Source: Phycisphaerae bacterium
GTDB taxonomy: Bacteria > Planctomycetota > Phycisphaerae > JAAYCJ01
Assembly (NCBI GenBank): GCA_012729815.1
Contig: JAAYCJ010000179.1
Span: 1-42,064, forward strand
DNA length: 42,064 nt
Direction: 5' to 3'
Shown one piece after another: positions 2,445-12,563 of this stretch (its first letter is position 1; each line of letters opens with the position of its first letter). The notes under the pieces were generated by a model. It worked only from the letters and a program-made list of their open reading frames with translations. It made no database searches and was not told the DNA's origin. The position numbers were made by a program, and so were the translations under genes.

Positions 2445-3596
2445 ATGACGGAGAGTCAGGCGCAGACACAGGTCCGGCCGGAACGGGAATCAAATCGCTA
2501 TCTTCCGCCTCCGGTTCTGGCGGGCTACACGTACAGCGGCGAGGAGGCCTACGCCGCCCGCGACGCCGGACAACTGCTGGCGATCCGGGTGGAGACGAAC
2601 CGGACGTGCAACCTTCGCTGCCGCTATTGCTATGCCGAGAGCGGAGCGGAGGTCGAGGGTCTGACCTACGCGCAGATCGCCGACGTGGTCGGGCAGGCGG
2701 CGGAGTTGGACGCGCGGTCGGTGGTGGTCATCGGGGGCGGTGAACCGACGATCTGGCCGCGGTTCCGCGATCTGGTCTCGCTGATCGACGCGTTGCACAT
2801 GATCCCGATGATCTTCAGCAACACCGTGGCGATCGATCGGGAGCTGGCCGAGTTTCTCGCGGCCCATAACGCGTCGGTTATGGGCAAGCTCGACTCGCTG
2901 CGTCCGGACGTGCAGGACTTTCTGGCGGGCGAGGGCGGAGCGGCGGAGCGGATCATGGGCGGGTTGCGCCACCTGATGGAGGCGGGACTGGTAAACGGCG
3001 GGGAGTCGCACCGGCTGCGTTTGGGCGTCTCGTGCGTGACCAGCCGGGTGAACCTCGATGAGATCGAGGATATCTGGCACTTTTGCCGCGCCAACCGAGT
3101 TTTTCCGAATCTGGAGGTGCTGACGCCGACGGGCCGGGCCAAGGACCACCTGGCGGCGTACTATCTGACGGCGGAGCAGATCACCGGCTACAAGCGGCGG
3201 CTGTTGGAGGTTGACCGGCGTTTTTACGGTTACGACTGGCTGCCGTACACGCCGCTGACGGCGAGCGGGTGCCTTCAGCACCTCTACAGCCTGTACATTT
3301 CGCTGGAGGGCAACGTGCGGCCATGCGCTCCGACGAAGTTCGATCAGCATCCGGCCCTCCTGACGGGCGGGCAGTATCCGCACAACGTGCGCCGGCGTTC
3401 GCTGCGCGGGATTTACGACGATGAGCTTTTCCGGTACGTCCGCCACATCGACGTTCACCTGGAGGGCAAGTGCAGCGGCTGCGAGCACTTGCGTCAGTGC
3501 ATCGGATGTCGCGGGTACGCGTACAGCGTCGGCGTCAACGAGGGCAAGGACCCTCGCGAGGCGTTGCGATCGGAGTGCCGCCAATGCTTCAAGTAG
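2445..3596 (+). CDS. Radical SAM protein with SPASM-like C-terminal cysteine cluster
   Basis: 383 residues from ATG 2445, preceded by a G-rich run (2434-2440). The CxxxCxxC motif CNLRCRYC (Cys55, Cys59, Cys62) binds the radical-generating 4Fe-4S cluster, and GGGEPT is the SAM-contacting glycine motif. The C-terminal third is cysteine-rich: ASGCLQH, VRPCAP, GKCSGCEHLRQCIGCRGYAY and SECRQCF. This is the arrangement seen in SPASM/twitch proteins that carry auxiliary clusters and modify peptides or small molecules. The stop overlaps the next gene by 13 bases, and that gene overlaps the following one, so the three are translationally coupled. The substrate is unknown; no precursor peptide was recognised nearby, which favours a small-molecule or amino-acid substrate (inference). 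Confidence 0.88.
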   Translation: MTESQAQTQVRPERESNRYLPPPVLAGYTYSGEEAYAARDAGQLLAIRVETNRTCNLRCRYCYAESGAEVEGLTYAQIADVVGQAAELDARSVVVIGGGEPTIWPRFRDLVSLIDALHMIPMIFSNTVAIDRELAEFLAAHNASVMGKLDSLRPDVQDFLAGEGGAAERIMGGLRHLMEAGLVNGGESHRLRLGVSCVTSRVNLDEIEDIWHFCRANRVFPNLEVLTPTGRAKDHLAAYYLTAEQITGYKRRLLEVDRRFYGYDWLPYTPLTASGCLQHLYSLYISLEGNVRPCAPTKFDQHPALLTGGQYPHNVRRRSLRGIYDDELFRYVRHIDVHLEGKCSGCEHLRQCIGCRGYAYSVGVNEGKDPREALRSECRQCFK

Positions 3597-4549
3597 CCAC
3601 GGGCGAGGCCGCGATCATCGAACTGCTCAGCGGGGAGTACCTGGAGGAGCAGCTTTGCCGGCATCTGGAGCACCGGTATCTGCCGGACTACCTTTTGTAT
3701 CTGGGAGAGTGGGGCGCGGGCAACTGGCTGGAACTCGACCGGTCGCCGCAGTTTCGGGTCGCCGCCGATCTGACCGATCTGCTGCGCGAGCACGCGGCGT
3801 CGGTTGTCGAGCGTTTTCCCGCCGGGGCGAGTCTGGTGAGCATCGGGACCGGCAGCGGCGAGAAGGAGCGCCTTGTGCTTGAGGCGATGTGCGGTCGTGA
3901 CCGGCCGCGGTACGTCTGCGTCGACGTCAGCCGCCGCCTGGTTGAGACGGCGTTGCGGACGGTTGACGACCTGCCGATCGAGAAGATGGGCGTGGTGGCG
4001 TTCTTCGAGGATTTGCCCGTGCTGCGCCGATTGTGGCGGCGGCCGGTGGTGGTGGCGATGCTGGGCAACAACTTCAACAACTACGACACCGATAATCTGT
4101 TGGATACGGTGCGGGCGCAACTGGCGGCGGAGGACCTGTTTCTTTTCGACTCGCACCTGTTTGCCGGACGGACGGAGGAGATCGAGCGGGTCTATCAGAG
4201 CGAACCGAACGTGCGGTTCAACCTCGGGCCGCTGGTCCGCTGCGGCCTGGACCCGGAACACTGCCGGTTTCACCTGAAGCTCGATTGCATCCAGACGGTG
4301 GTCGGGCCGGTCCGTAGAACCCGCAAATGGCTTGAGGTGCTCGACGATTCGGTTGTGACGGCGGGCGGTCGAATGCTGCGATTGGGTGCGGGCGAGATCA
4401 TCCGGATGGGTTTTACCTGCAAGTACACGCTCGACCAGATTGAGGCGTACCTTCGCCGGCACGCGCTGGAGGTCGCGGACCGCCGGCTGAGCCGCGACGG
4501 GACGAACGTCCTCTTTTCGGTCCGCCAACGCCTGGCAGGAGCATCATGA
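3584..4549 (+). CDS. EgtD-like SAM-dependent methyltransferase (amino acid N-methyltransferase family)
   Basis: 321 residues. ATG 3584 has GGAG at 3572-3575 and overlaps the upstream stop. The SAM site IGTGSGEKE (residues 87-95) matches the EgtD-family GSGxxEKT motif, followed by the VDVS strand; LGNNFNNYD (160-168) matches the LGxxIGNF motif, keeping the equivalent of EgtD Asn166. Near the C-terminus, the strand that in histidine-specific EgtD reads about RTExSAKF is RMGFTCKY (274-281). The imidazole-binding Glu282 therefore corresponds to Gly276 and Ser284 to Thr278. Family membership is clear, but histidine is unlikely to be the substrate (inference). No ergothioneine genes (egtB, egtC, egtE) are present. 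It shares an ATGA overlap with the next gene. Confidence 0.85.
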   Translation: MLQVATGEAAIIELLSGEYLEEQLCRHLEHRYLPDYLLYLGEWGAGNWLELDRSPQFRVAADLTDLLREHAASVVERFPAGASLVSIGTGSGEKERLVLEAMCGRDRPRYVCVDVSRRLVETALRTVDDLPIEKMGVVAFFEDLPVLRRLWRRPVVVAMLGNNFNNYDTDNLLDTVRAQLAAEDLFLFDSHLFAGRTEEIERVYQSEPNVRFNLGPLVRCGLDPEHCRFHLKLDCIQTVVGPVRRTRKWLEVLDDSVVTAGGRMLRLGAGEIIRMGFTCKYTLDQIEAYLRRHALEVADRRLSRDGTNVLFSVRQRLAGAS

Positions 4550-5517
4550 TGCAGGACTCGCCGACGGCGTCTTCGACGATGAGGATTCCCTACGGGTGCG
4601 AGGCCTTCGGGCGACTGACCCACGTGATGCTTCATCGGCCGGGCGAGTCGCTGCGGCTGATCAACGAGTCGAACCGTCATCGGTGGCTTTTCGACGCGGT
4701 TCCGGACGTGGATCGCTATGGCGAGGAGCACGATCGGTATCGTCAGCTTCTGACGGACCACAAGGTGACGGTTCTGGAACTGGCGGATTACGTCAACCAC
4801 GAGCACCACCGGATCGCTGCGATGCCGAACCTCACGTTCCTGCACGACACGGCGGTGATCACGCGGCGAGGGGCGATCCTCTCGTGCATGGCGATGGACG
4901 GGCGGCGGCACGAGCACCGCGTGGTCCGCGAGGCGCTCGGCAACCTGGGGGTTCCCATCTTCATTGACTTCGACGAAACGCACGACGCGTTTGAAGGCTG
5001 TCTGCTGCTTTCGCCCAGGACGGTTCTGGTGGCGGAGACGGAGCGCCACAACGTTCGCGCCATCCGTCGCTTCATCCGGAAAGCTCTGACGGTGTTTGAA
5101 GAGGTGGTGTACGTGGACGTGCCGAAGGCCCGGCGCTACATGCACCCGGACACGATTTTCAACCGGATCACCGACCGGCTGGCGCTGGTTTACATGCCGG
5201 CGTTCGTGCGGACGGTTCTGCATCGCCGCGACCGATCCGAGCCGATCGACTTTGTCCGGTGGATGCGGGGCCGCGGCGTGGAGCTGATCCACGTGTCGGA
5301 CCTGGAGCAGCGGCGGCTGGCGTGCACGTTCGTACCATTGGAGCCGGGCGTGATGTTTCACTACGATACGGCGCTGGCCCGCGAGACGCAGATCGCGCTG
5401 GCCCGTCGCGGCGTGGAATTGATCCTGTTCCATCCGGAGGCTATACTCGCCGGAGGCGGGAGTCTGCGGTGCCACACGCTTCGCCTCCGCCGCGCGGCGT
5501 CGGGAAGCGCCGACTGA
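4546..5517 (+). CDS. Arginine deiminase / amidinotransferase-fold (GME superfamily) enzyme
   Basis: 323 residues from ATG 4546 (ATG 4549 is also possible), overlapping the methyltransferase stop. All five catalytic positions of the arginine-deiminase superfamily can be placed: Asp101 in NLTFLHD (FTRD-like), Glu150 in FEGC, His200 and Asp202 in MHPDTIF, and the nucleophile Cys309 in GGGSLRCHT. The length is short for ArcA (about 410) and closer to DDAH or compact deiminases, so the ArcA-type inserted helical domain seems absent. Members hydrolyse or transfer guanidino groups. Coupling to the radical SAM and EgtD-like genes suggests action on a guanidino amino acid made or modified by them (inference). 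No arcB or arcC is nearby, so ATP-yielding arginine fermentation is unlikely. Confidence 0.85.
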   Translation: MMQDSPTASSTMRIPYGCEAFGRLTHVMLHRPGESLRLINESNRHRWLFDAVPDVDRYGEEHDRYRQLLTDHKVTVLELADYVNHEHHRIAAMPNLTFLHDTAVITRRGAILSCMAMDGRRHEHRVVREALGNLGVPIFIDFDETHDAFEGCLLLSPRTVLVAETERHNVRAIRRFIRKALTVFEEVVYVDVPKARRYMHPDTIFNRITDRLALVYMPAFVRTVLHRRDRSEPIDFVRWMRGRGVELIHVSDLEQRRLACTFVPLEPGVMFHYDTALARETQIALARRGVELILFHPEAILAGGGSLRCHTLRLRRAASGSAD

Positions 5518-9409: not shown

Positions 9410-10153
9410 ATGGGCATGCTGGAAATCAGGAACTTGAGCCTGTCGTTGAACGGGCACGAGATCCTATCGGAACTGAATCTGGACCTATGGGAAGGGTATG
9501 TCCACGCGGTGGTCGGGCCGAACGGGGCGGGCAAGTCGACGCTCGCGTTCACGATCATGGGCCTGGAGGGCTATCGCGGGTTTTCGGGCGAGATTGTCTT
9601 TGACGGGCGATCGCTGCACGAGCTTTCGATCGACGAGCGGGCCCGGCTTGGCATCACGCTGGGCTGGCAGGAGCCGGCGCGGTACGAGGGGCTGACGGTC
9701 GGCAAGTTCGTCCAGGTCGGATCGAAGGAGCACAATCCCGAAGTCACCGCTGAGTTGCTCGCGAAGGTCGGTCTGCCTCCCGGACGCTACATGCAGCGGG
9801 CGGTGGACAAGACGCTCAGCGGCGGCGAGCGGAAGAAGGTGGAGCTGGCGTCGCTGGTGGCGATGAAGCCGCGGCTGGTCATGCTCGACGAGCCGGACAG
9901 CGGTATCGACATCGAGAGTCTGCGGCGGATTCGCGAGGCGATCGGGCTGCTCAAGGAACAGGGCGCGACGGTGCTGCTGATCACGCACAGTCTGGAAGTC
10001 CTCAGTTGGGCCGAGCACGCGTTCCTCCTGTGCTGCGGCCGGGTCGTGGACAAGGGGAACGTCGACAAGATCGCCGGGTATTTCCGCGACAAGTGCGTCC
10101 CCTGCGACCACCGCAACCGCCCCGAACTTAATGGAGCCCTCGCCAATGGATAA
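9410..10153 (+). CDS. smsC: SufC-like ATPase of a minimal two-gene Fe-S assembly system (SmsC)
   Basis: 247 residues (ATG 9410; ATG 9416 is possible). ABC ATPase with Walker A GPNGAGKST, signature LSGGERKK, Walker B LVMLDEPDSGID and an ITH switch histidine. The DEPDSGID form and overall length are SufC-like. The C-terminus ends in a short extension, RDKCVPCDH, with a CxxC that E. coli SufC does not have. The next gene is the only SufB/D-type scaffold nearby and overlaps it by 8 bases. This two-gene layout matches the SUF-like minimal system (SMS) described for anaerobic bacteria and archaea, in which SmsC powers cluster assembly on SmsB. Metal binding by the CxxC is speculation. Confidence 0.9.
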   Translation: MGMLEIRNLSLSLNGHEILSELNLDLWEGYVHAVVGPNGAGKSTLAFTIMGLEGYRGFSGEIVFDGRSLHELSIDERARLGITLGWQEPARYEGLTVGKFVQVGSKEHNPEVTAELLAKVGLPPGRYMQRAVDKTLSGGERKKVELASLVAMKPRLVMLDEPDSGIDIESLRRIREAIGLLKEQGATVLLITHSLEVLSWAEHAFLLCCGRVVDKGNVDKIAGYFRDKCVPCDHRNRPELNGALANG

Positions 10154-11066
10154 CGCCGAACTGATCGGCCTGGCCAAGATACACGCCGCGGTCAAGGATC
10201 CGGACGTCGCCCACCTGGTCATCGGCCTCAACAAAGTCATCACCAGCAACACTGTGCCCGGCCTGGAGGTGGAGGTCGTTGAGAAGAGCGACGAGGTCCG
10301 CATCGGCGTTTACCTGAAGCCGGAGGTCCGGGTGGCCAAGCCGGTTCACATGTGCTTCGGCCTGGTGCAGGAGGCGGGCATCCAGAAGATCAACCTCGAC
10401 CTGAACATCGAGCGGGACTCAGCGGTCGATATCATCGCCCATTGCGTGTTTCCCAACGCGACCGACGTGCAGCACCTGATGGACGCGCAGATCAACATCG
10501 CGGCCAACGCCCGGTACACCTATTTCGAACGCCACATCCACTCGCCCGCGGGCGGGATCACCGTGGTGCCCAAGGCGGTCGTCGAACTGGGGTCCGGCGC
10601 GCGGTTCAAGACGGACTTCGAGCTGATCCAGGGACGCGTGGGCGTGATCGACATCGACTACACCACGACCTGCCGCGACCACAGTGTGATGGAGATGGTG
10701 GCCAAGGTCAGCGGGCGGGGCGACGACGTGATCAAGATCCGCGAGACCGGCCATCTGATCGGCGAGTACGCCCGCGGCGCGCTGCTGTCCCGGGTTGCGG
10801 TCCGCGACCGGGCGCGGGCCGACGTGTACAACCGCCTGACCGCCTCGGCGGCCCATGCCCGCGGCCACGTCGACTGCAAGGAGATCATCCTCGACGACGG
10901 CGTGGCCTCGGCCACTCCGATCGTGGAAGTCAACCACCCCAAGGCCCACGTGACCCACGAGGCGGCGCTGGGCAGCGTCGACACCAAACAGCTTGAGACC
11001 CTCATGTCACGCGGCCTGAGCGAGGACGAGGCGTCGGACCTGATCGTCGCCGGCCTGCTGACCTGA
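10146..11066 (+). CDS. smsB: SufB/SufD-like Fe-S scaffold of the minimal system (SmsB)
   Basis: 306 residues. ATG 10146 is preferred because GGAG (10133-10136) lies 9 bases upstream; an in-frame ATG at 10131 would place that site inside the gene. It is a right-handed beta-helix SufBD core protein with the characteristic ending VEVNHPKAHVTHEAALGSVDTKQLETLMSRGLSEDEA, close to the SufB ending xxAxxTHEAAIGxI. It is much shorter than E. coli SufB (about 495), as expected for SmsB. Nearby Cys residues (TTTCRDHS, GHVDCKE) are candidate cluster ligands. It overlaps smsC. No sufS, sufE, sufU or sufD is in the window, so the sulfur donor must be encoded elsewhere or be free sulfide. Confidence 0.88.
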   Translation: MDNAELIGLAKIHAAVKDPDVAHLVIGLNKVITSNTVPGLEVEVVEKSDEVRIGVYLKPEVRVAKPVHMCFGLVQEAGIQKINLDLNIERDSAVDIIAHCVFPNATDVQHLMDAQINIAANARYTYFERHIHSPAGGITVVPKAVVELGSGARFKTDFELIQGRVGVIDIDYTTTCRDHSVMEMVAKVSGRGDDVIKIRETGHLIGEYARGALLSRVAVRDRARADVYNRLTASAAHARGHVDCKEIILDDGVASATPIVEVNHPKAHVTHEAALGSVDTKQLETLMSRGLSEDEASDLIVAGLLT

Positions 11067-11675: not shown

Positions 11676-12563
11676 TCAAGGGCCGTCGCCTGTCGGCAGC
11701 GACTCGGCGTGGTTGTCGATGTCCTTCCACGGATCGCCCTGGCGGCCAAGGCGCTGGAGGACATTACTGATGTTGTACCCGTCCGGGCGAAGGTCGCTGC
11801 GGTCCACCTCCGACCACTCCAGCGGCACAGCCACTGGCGCTCCGGGCCTGGCCCGCACCGAATACGGGGCCACCGCGGTCTGGCCATAGGCGTTGCGGTT
11901 GGTGTCGATAAACACCCGATCGCCCCGTTTGGCGATCCGCTGTTCGGTCGTGAATTTCTTCTCGTCCTGCGTCGCCAGCACGCCGGCCACCTGCTGGGCG
12001 AACGCCCGCACCTGGTCGAACGTCTTGCCGCGTTTGATCGGACAGACCACATGCATGCCCTTCGACCCGGTGGCCATGGCGTAGGCCTTCAGGCCCGCCG
12101 CCTCCAGGATCTCACGCAGCCGCTTGGCCCCGGCGCGCACGTCGTCGAATCCGCCGTTTGGCGGGTCCAGATCGAAGATCAACCGGTCGGGCTTTTCGAT
12201 CTTGTCCCGGCGGGACAGCCAGATGTGAATGGCGATGCAGGCCTGATTGGCCAGGTAGGCCAGGTCGGCCGTCTTGCCGATCACCACGTGGTTGACCGTG
12301 CCGTTTTCCTTATCGACCCGCTGGGTGGCGATCCAGCCGGGAAAGTACCTCGGCGCGTTCTTGTTGAAGAAGCTCTTGCCCTCGATGCCGTCGGGAAAGC
12401 GATGCATGACGATGGGCCGGTTCGCGACATGCGGCAGCATCATCTCGGCGATCCTGCGGTAGTATTCGATAAGGTCCTTCTTGGCGTAGCCGGCCCCTGG
12501 AAAAAAGACCTTGTCCTCCTTCGAGGTCTTGATCGTCTGTCCGTCGACTTCGATGCGGCCCAT
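11676..12563 (-). CDS. LigD polymerase (LigPol) domain, stand-alone archaeo-eukaryotic primase-type enzyme
   Basis: 295 residues from ATG 12563. The whole protein is the polymerase/primase module of bacterial NHEJ LigD: the DKVFFPG start, HRFPDGI, IFDLDPP (the two catalytic Asp residues), SKGMHVV and the late metal-ligand segment FIDTNRN. No ligase or phosphoesterase domain is fused. The family extends DNA or RNA ends, with a preference for ribonucleotides, during end joining. A separate LigD phosphoesterase gene lies 63 bases upstream on the same strand, giving a split LigD. No Ku or ATP-dependent ligase gene is in the window. Confidence 0.93.
   Translation of the reverse strand: MGRIEVDGQTIKTSKEDKVFFPGAGYAKKDLIEYYRRIAEMMLPHVANRPIVMHRFPDGIEGKSFFNKNAPRYFPGWIATQRVDKENGTVNHVVIGKTADLAYLANQACIAIHIWLSRRDKIEKPDRLIFDLDPPNGGFDDVRAGAKRLREILEAAGLKAYAMATGSKGMHVVCPIKRGKTFDQVRAFAQQVAGVLATQDEKKFTTEQRIAKRGDRVFIDTNRNAYGQTAVAPYSVRARPGAPVAVPLEWSEVDRSDLRPDGYNISNVLQRLGRQGDPWKDIDNHAESLPTGDGP

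Follow-up and report, generated by a model that had tools for sequence, protein, structure and literature searches.

A three-gene radical SAM, EgtD-fold and deiminase-fold operon shared by Planctomycetota and Methanosarcina that probably converts an arginine-like amino acid into a small molecule

The closest described relatives of the three enzymes analysed here are the SPASM-type radical SAM enzymes (PqqE, the mycofactocin maturase, SkfB and NirJ/AhbD), the methyltransferase EgtD, whose fold is shared by enzymes that methylate free amino acids, and the arginine deiminase (ADI) ArcA. In a 42,064-nucleotide stretch of DNA from a Phycisphaerae bacterium (contig JAAYCJ010000179.1; hereafter 'the window'), relatives of all three are encoded by adjoining genes (hereafter 'the trio'; Table 1). 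All three enzymes fall within known superfamilies, and it is their combination which appears to be undescribed: a literature search, with most subscription journals outside its coverage, returned no description of it. The trio is probably biosynthetic, with an arginine-like amino acid as starting material and a small molecule as product, and we lean towards considering it a self-contained operon, devoid of a precursor peptide, that is dedicated to converting arginine or an arginine-like amino acid into such a compound.

Table 1. Positions of the three genes and of their overlaps in the window
Feature	Position	Strand	Remarks
SPASM-type radical SAM gene	2445..3596	+	383 aa; ATG at 2445, stop ends 3596
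EgtD-fold SAM-dependent methyltransferase gene	3584..4549	+	321 aa
Short arginine-deiminase-fold gene	4546..5517	+	323 aa
Radical SAM/methyltransferase gene overlap, 13 bases	3584..3596	+	sequence
Methyltransferase/deiminase gene overlap, 4 bases, ATGA	4546..4549	+	sequence

The reading frames lie exactly where the first-pass annotation of the window had placed them, with both overlaps and with the catalytic motifs intact: the radical SAM enzyme carries CNLRCRYC (CX3CX2C) and a C-terminal cysteine cluster, the methyltransferase carries GTGSGEKE, and Asp101, Glu150, His200, Asp202 and Cys309 of the deiminase-fold enzyme align with the catalytic residues of ADI. The ATGA overlap of the methyltransferase and deiminase genes recurs in loci L061, L063 and L173, and is replaced by short gaps in several Methanosarcina copies. 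A profile search of the planctomycete genome identified a single PF10017 gene and a single PF02274 gene, both of which are located inside the window.

When 84,980 species genomes were scanned with the radical SAM alignment, the complete trio emerged, in unchanged order, from two MAGs of Methanosarcina (L061, L062) and one of Planctomycetota (L063). Sequence identity to these orthologues is 62–65% for the radical SAM enzyme, about 35–43% for the methyltransferase and about 50–65% for the deiminase, and the trio of L062 is broken by frameshifts, which are possibly assembly errors. When the archaeal family of the Methanosarcina MAGs was searched with the deiminase alignment, the deiminase was found in 29 of 111 genomes; the methyltransferase adjoins it in all 29 and the radical SAM gene completes the trio in 28, the copy in the remaining genome being situated at a contig end. 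The M. acetivorans control genome was positive for both PF10017 and PF02274. Two loci of this family (L187, L188) contain decayed copies with internal deletions, frameshifts and truncations, two of the three genes being damaged in each. An in-frame TAG in three of the Methanosarcina deiminase matches raised the possibility of pyrrolysine, which was dismissed since, in the two copies read, the TAG is located just before the ATG.

Among 294 genomes of the archaeal phylum, all strong matches (>390 bits) fell in genomes known from the family search, and among 392 Planctomycetota genomes, a set that appears to include the window's own genome, only that of L063 yielded a strong deiminase match. No trio was detected in the 395 genomes searched from the phylum to which a Deltaproteobacteria MAG belongs, nor in the viral contigs searched. 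The phylum searched gene by gene, and plasmids searched with the methyltransferase and the deiminase, gave only remote relatives of these two proteins, and a scan of genome contigs with methyltransferase patterns, which were derived from a single sequence and were too strict, gave no close ones. The concern raised in the first-pass annotation that homologues of the three genes might never occur together in other genomes is contradicted by the 29 Methanosarcina-family genomes and the second planctomycete and, because the trio is conserved in two domains of life, chance adjacency is ruled out. The synteny across several phyla that had been named as support for a pathway extends here to two phyla, namely Planctomycetota and the phylum to which the archaeon Methanosarcina belongs, and not to several.

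The trees of the radical SAM enzyme and of the deiminase are concordant: in both, the two planctomycetes are separated from every Methanosarcina sequence, and long stems lead to the trio clades. With a number of long branches and with rooting at the midpoint only, the trees would fit a transfer in either direction. A recent transfer into the window was considered and rejected, as there is no GC anomaly and the GC content of the trio is that of its neighbours.

The radical SAM enzyme matches PF04055 with 61.3 bits and the SPASM profile PF13186 with 21.2 bits, that is, just below the cut-off of 21.5, and no NCBIfam equivalog scores above its cut-off. The CX3CX2C motif (residues 55–62 from the ATG) is followed by eight C-terminal cysteines (C276-X12-G-X4-C294, C343-X2-C346-X5-C352-X2-C355 and C378-X2-C381), and these cysteines are invariant or nearly so in 21 orthologues. 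This pattern fits a SPASM enzyme with two predicted auxiliary [4Fe-4S] clusters. The protein shares with the described SPASM enzymes both the CX3CX2C core and the C-terminal two-cluster cysteine pattern, but differs from them by a trio-specific insert, PCAPTK(F/L)D(E/Q)HPAL...YP(H/Y)N, and by the absence of a linked precursor peptide. Peptides are the usual substrates of SPASM radical SAM enzymes, and among characterised proteins the sactipeptide maturase SkfB is the nearest in sequence, so that the trio might instead modify a peptide or protein encoded elsewhere, either as a RiPP system or by post-translational modification. We regard this as rather improbable: (i) in agreement with the first-pass annotation, no short open reading frame in the flanks is common to the planctomycete and Methanosarcina loci, (ii) Pfam shows no leader-binding domain, (iii) the deiminase keeps the residues that bind a free α-carboxylate, and (iv) the substrates of EgtD-fold enzymes are, as a family, free amino acids.

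Other relatives of the radical SAM enzyme are found in different company. Planctomycete homologues with 33–38% identity were rejected as trio members because they belong to ketosynthase/AMP-ligase clusters and the other two genes are absent; in L047 (8405–9802) and L049–L053, such relatives are clustered with ketosynthase, AMP-binding and B12-binding radical SAM genes, and the L047 copy has an apparent C-terminal acyl carrier domain. A relative with 42% identity from Omnitrophota (L064) was likewise discarded, being without methyltransferase and deiminase. On plasmids of Sinorhizobium and Azospirillum (L055, NZ_CP029453.1 16080–30988; L056, NC_016623.1 276120–290995), a distant relative precedes an arginase-family (agmatinase) gene, and in L055 an ATP-grasp gene carrying an L-amino acid ligase C-terminal domain follows as well. 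These pairs resemble the trio in that a radical SAM relative (27–29% identity) is encoded beside another type of guanidino hydrolase, but they lack an EgtD-like or ADI-like gene, have another C-terminal region and are placed on a very long tree branch; they possibly represent another radical SAM/guanidino pathway. By analogy, the pairing with an arginase-family gene may be taken as a weak hint of arginine chemistry for the radical SAM enzyme, while the ketosynthase and AMP-ligase clusters of the nearer relatives would point elsewhere.

The methyltransferase matches PF10017 (Methyltransf_33) with 74.7 bits, and the best PDB match of its structural model, which is of moderate confidence (pLDDT 71, from a three-row alignment), is EgtD (4uy5; TM 0.74). 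Of the EgtD residues that bind the α-amino acid moiety, Tyr39, Asn166 and Tyr206, the first is nearly invariant and the equivalents of the other two (N166 and Y204) are invariant. However, these likenesses in fold and residues are accompanied by clear differences: the GSTIGN motif of EgtD reads GN(T/N)F(C/N/S)N, the partner enzymes are a radical SAM enzyme and a deiminase, and the imidazole-binding residues Met252 and Glu282 are replaced by Lys248 and Gly276, placements which were made at about 19–25% identity to EgtD and which are invariant in every orthologue covering the site. Other aligned PF10017 proteins mostly have Glu at the position of Glu282 and Met or Ile at that of Met252. PDB entry 4pip is, by its title, the EgtD double mutant M252V/E282A with tryptophan, from which we conclude that positions 252 and 282 set the side-chain specificity, and histidine is therefore, on sequence grounds, unlikely to be the substrate. 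The protein is thus probably a member of a separate EgtD-fold clade that putatively α-N-methylates an amino acid other than histidine, and its side-chain pocket, with the invariant lysine, would at the methylation step be slightly more compatible with a neutral or acidic side chain than with a guanidinium group.

The methyltransferase is not the ordinary EgtD, with ergothioneine genes elsewhere, which the first-pass annotation had named as the finding that would overturn its reading: the protein scores 53 bits against TIGR03438 (egtD), for which the cut-off is 290.9, Glu282 and Met252 are lost, and a genome-wide search for EgtB (TIGR03440) yielded three partial matches, the best with 110 bits, and none above the 360-bit cut-off. 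The orthologue of the M. acetivorans type scores 60.4 bits against TIGR03438. In the E. coli control genome, a PF10017 match above the cut-off was registered.

The deiminase-fold enzyme matches PF02274 (ADI) with 82 bits. ArcA is its best sequence match, and arginine deiminases are the best PDB folds for its model, again of moderate confidence (pLDDT 66, three-row alignment). It keeps the five catalytic residues (D101, E150, H200, D202 and C309) together with the substrate residues N95, R120, R167 and R308, which we take to correspond to ADI Asn160, Arg185, Arg243 and Arg401 (numbering and roles from the P. aeruginosa structures). In spite of sharing catalytic and arginine-binding residues with ArcA, the protein scores only 99.3 bits against TIGR01078 (cut-off 489.1), for which full-length ADIs of the phylum reach about 357 bits, and, with 323 compared with about 406 residues, is about 80 residues shorter. 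The five-helix insert located in ADI between the N-terminal segment and the MPN..D motif is missing, and alignments to ArcA profiles and solved ADIs skip residues of about 75–150. Two further changes are specific to the trio: His100 (LHD) stands where relatives have Arg (RD) before the catalytic Asp, and EGC replaces the EGGD of ADI. The protein is thus not a member of ArcA but is predicted to work like an ADI-fold enzyme, and His100 and EGC could reflect altered chemistry, including that of a transferase. Eight other loci in Planctomycetota (L198–L205) encode short ADI-fold proteins with EGGG and HC motifs that score about 98–125 bits against the trio deiminase; they were rejected as trio members because no radical SAM or methyltransferase gene is located within 1.5 kb.

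That the motifs LHD and EGC differ from those of all deiminases aligned, and that amidinotransferases have the same fold (SxtG is among the fold matches), would also suit a pathway starting from an amino acid other than arginine, in which the deiminase-fold enzyme is an amidinotransferase or acts on another amidine or a ureido compound supplied by the radical SAM enzyme. However, the MHxDT motif, which is specific to ADI, together with R308-C309 and R120/R167, puts the protein closer to ADI than to amidinotransferases, and we judge such a start to be unlikely, about as much so as the modification of a peptide or protein.

The surroundings of the trio were compared with those of 20 Methanosarcina-family loci and of L061–L063, and apart from a general ABC ATPase match only the trio itself is common to both domains. 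In the window, GAPDH and metallo-β-lactamase/rhodanese genes are located upstream, and UPF0182, an aldo/keto reductase and a SufC/SufD-like pair downstream. None of these suggests an ergothioneine or arginine deiminase pathway, and the earlier observation that neither egtB nor arcBC is nearby proved correct, the neighbours all being of other families. The SufC-like ATPase and SufD-like protein (9410–11066), which score below equivalog cut-offs, adjoin the aldo/keto reductase gene, and a stand-alone LigD primase-polymerase domain protein is encoded on the minus strand at 11676–12563. One might still suppose, each of the families being common, that unconnected enzymes happen to be neighbours here: an ADI of arginine catabolism, a radical SAM enzyme and a methyltransferase of the ergothioneine type. 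This is very improbable, since the three genes consistently occur together and in one order in two domains, the scores are far under the ArcA and EgtD cut-offs, Glu282 and Met252 are lost, and neither an EgtB above its cut-off in the genome nor arcB or arcC beside the trio was found.

Returning to a small-molecule pathway from an arginine-like amino acid, the following scheme may be envisaged. In the first step, the radical SAM enzyme would alter the carbon skeleton of arginine, or of a derivative of it. The guanidino group would then be attacked by the deiminase-fold enzyme via a covalent Cys309–amidino intermediate, whereupon either ammonia would be released and a ureido (citrulline-type) side chain left, or the amidino group passed to an acceptor. 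Finally, the methyltransferase would methylate the α-amine, perhaps to the betaine. This exact order is put forward tentatively and is perhaps not the one followed; we propose it because (i) the invariant pocket lysine of the methyltransferase suits a neutral ureido or an acidic group better than a guanidinium, (ii) the deiminase keeps a residue binding the free α-amine, and (iii) a dedicated enzyme making plain citrulline would be redundant. The product would most likely be a modified arginine-type amino acid, probably α-N-methylated; the product class proposed in the first-pass annotation, a methylated, C–C- or C–S-modified guanidino amino acid, is likewise tentative. As to the full picture, an undescribed anaerobic pathway that is widespread among Methanosarcina, occurs also in rare Planctomycetota and leads to a new α-N-methylated, radical-modified arginine- or citrulline-type metabolite that serves as osmolyte, cofactor or protectant, we give it an even chance.

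If our reading is right, the trio adds a new member to the ADI-like enzymes and a new specificity to the EgtD-like ones, and constitutes a compact pathway that has been passed between Archaea and Planctomycetota. The best-studied genus of methane-making archaea would then carry a small-molecule pathway for which we found no description. The entire route apparently requires three genes, and its product could be sought directly in M. acetivorans, M. mazei and M. barkeri, all of which can be worked with in the laboratory.
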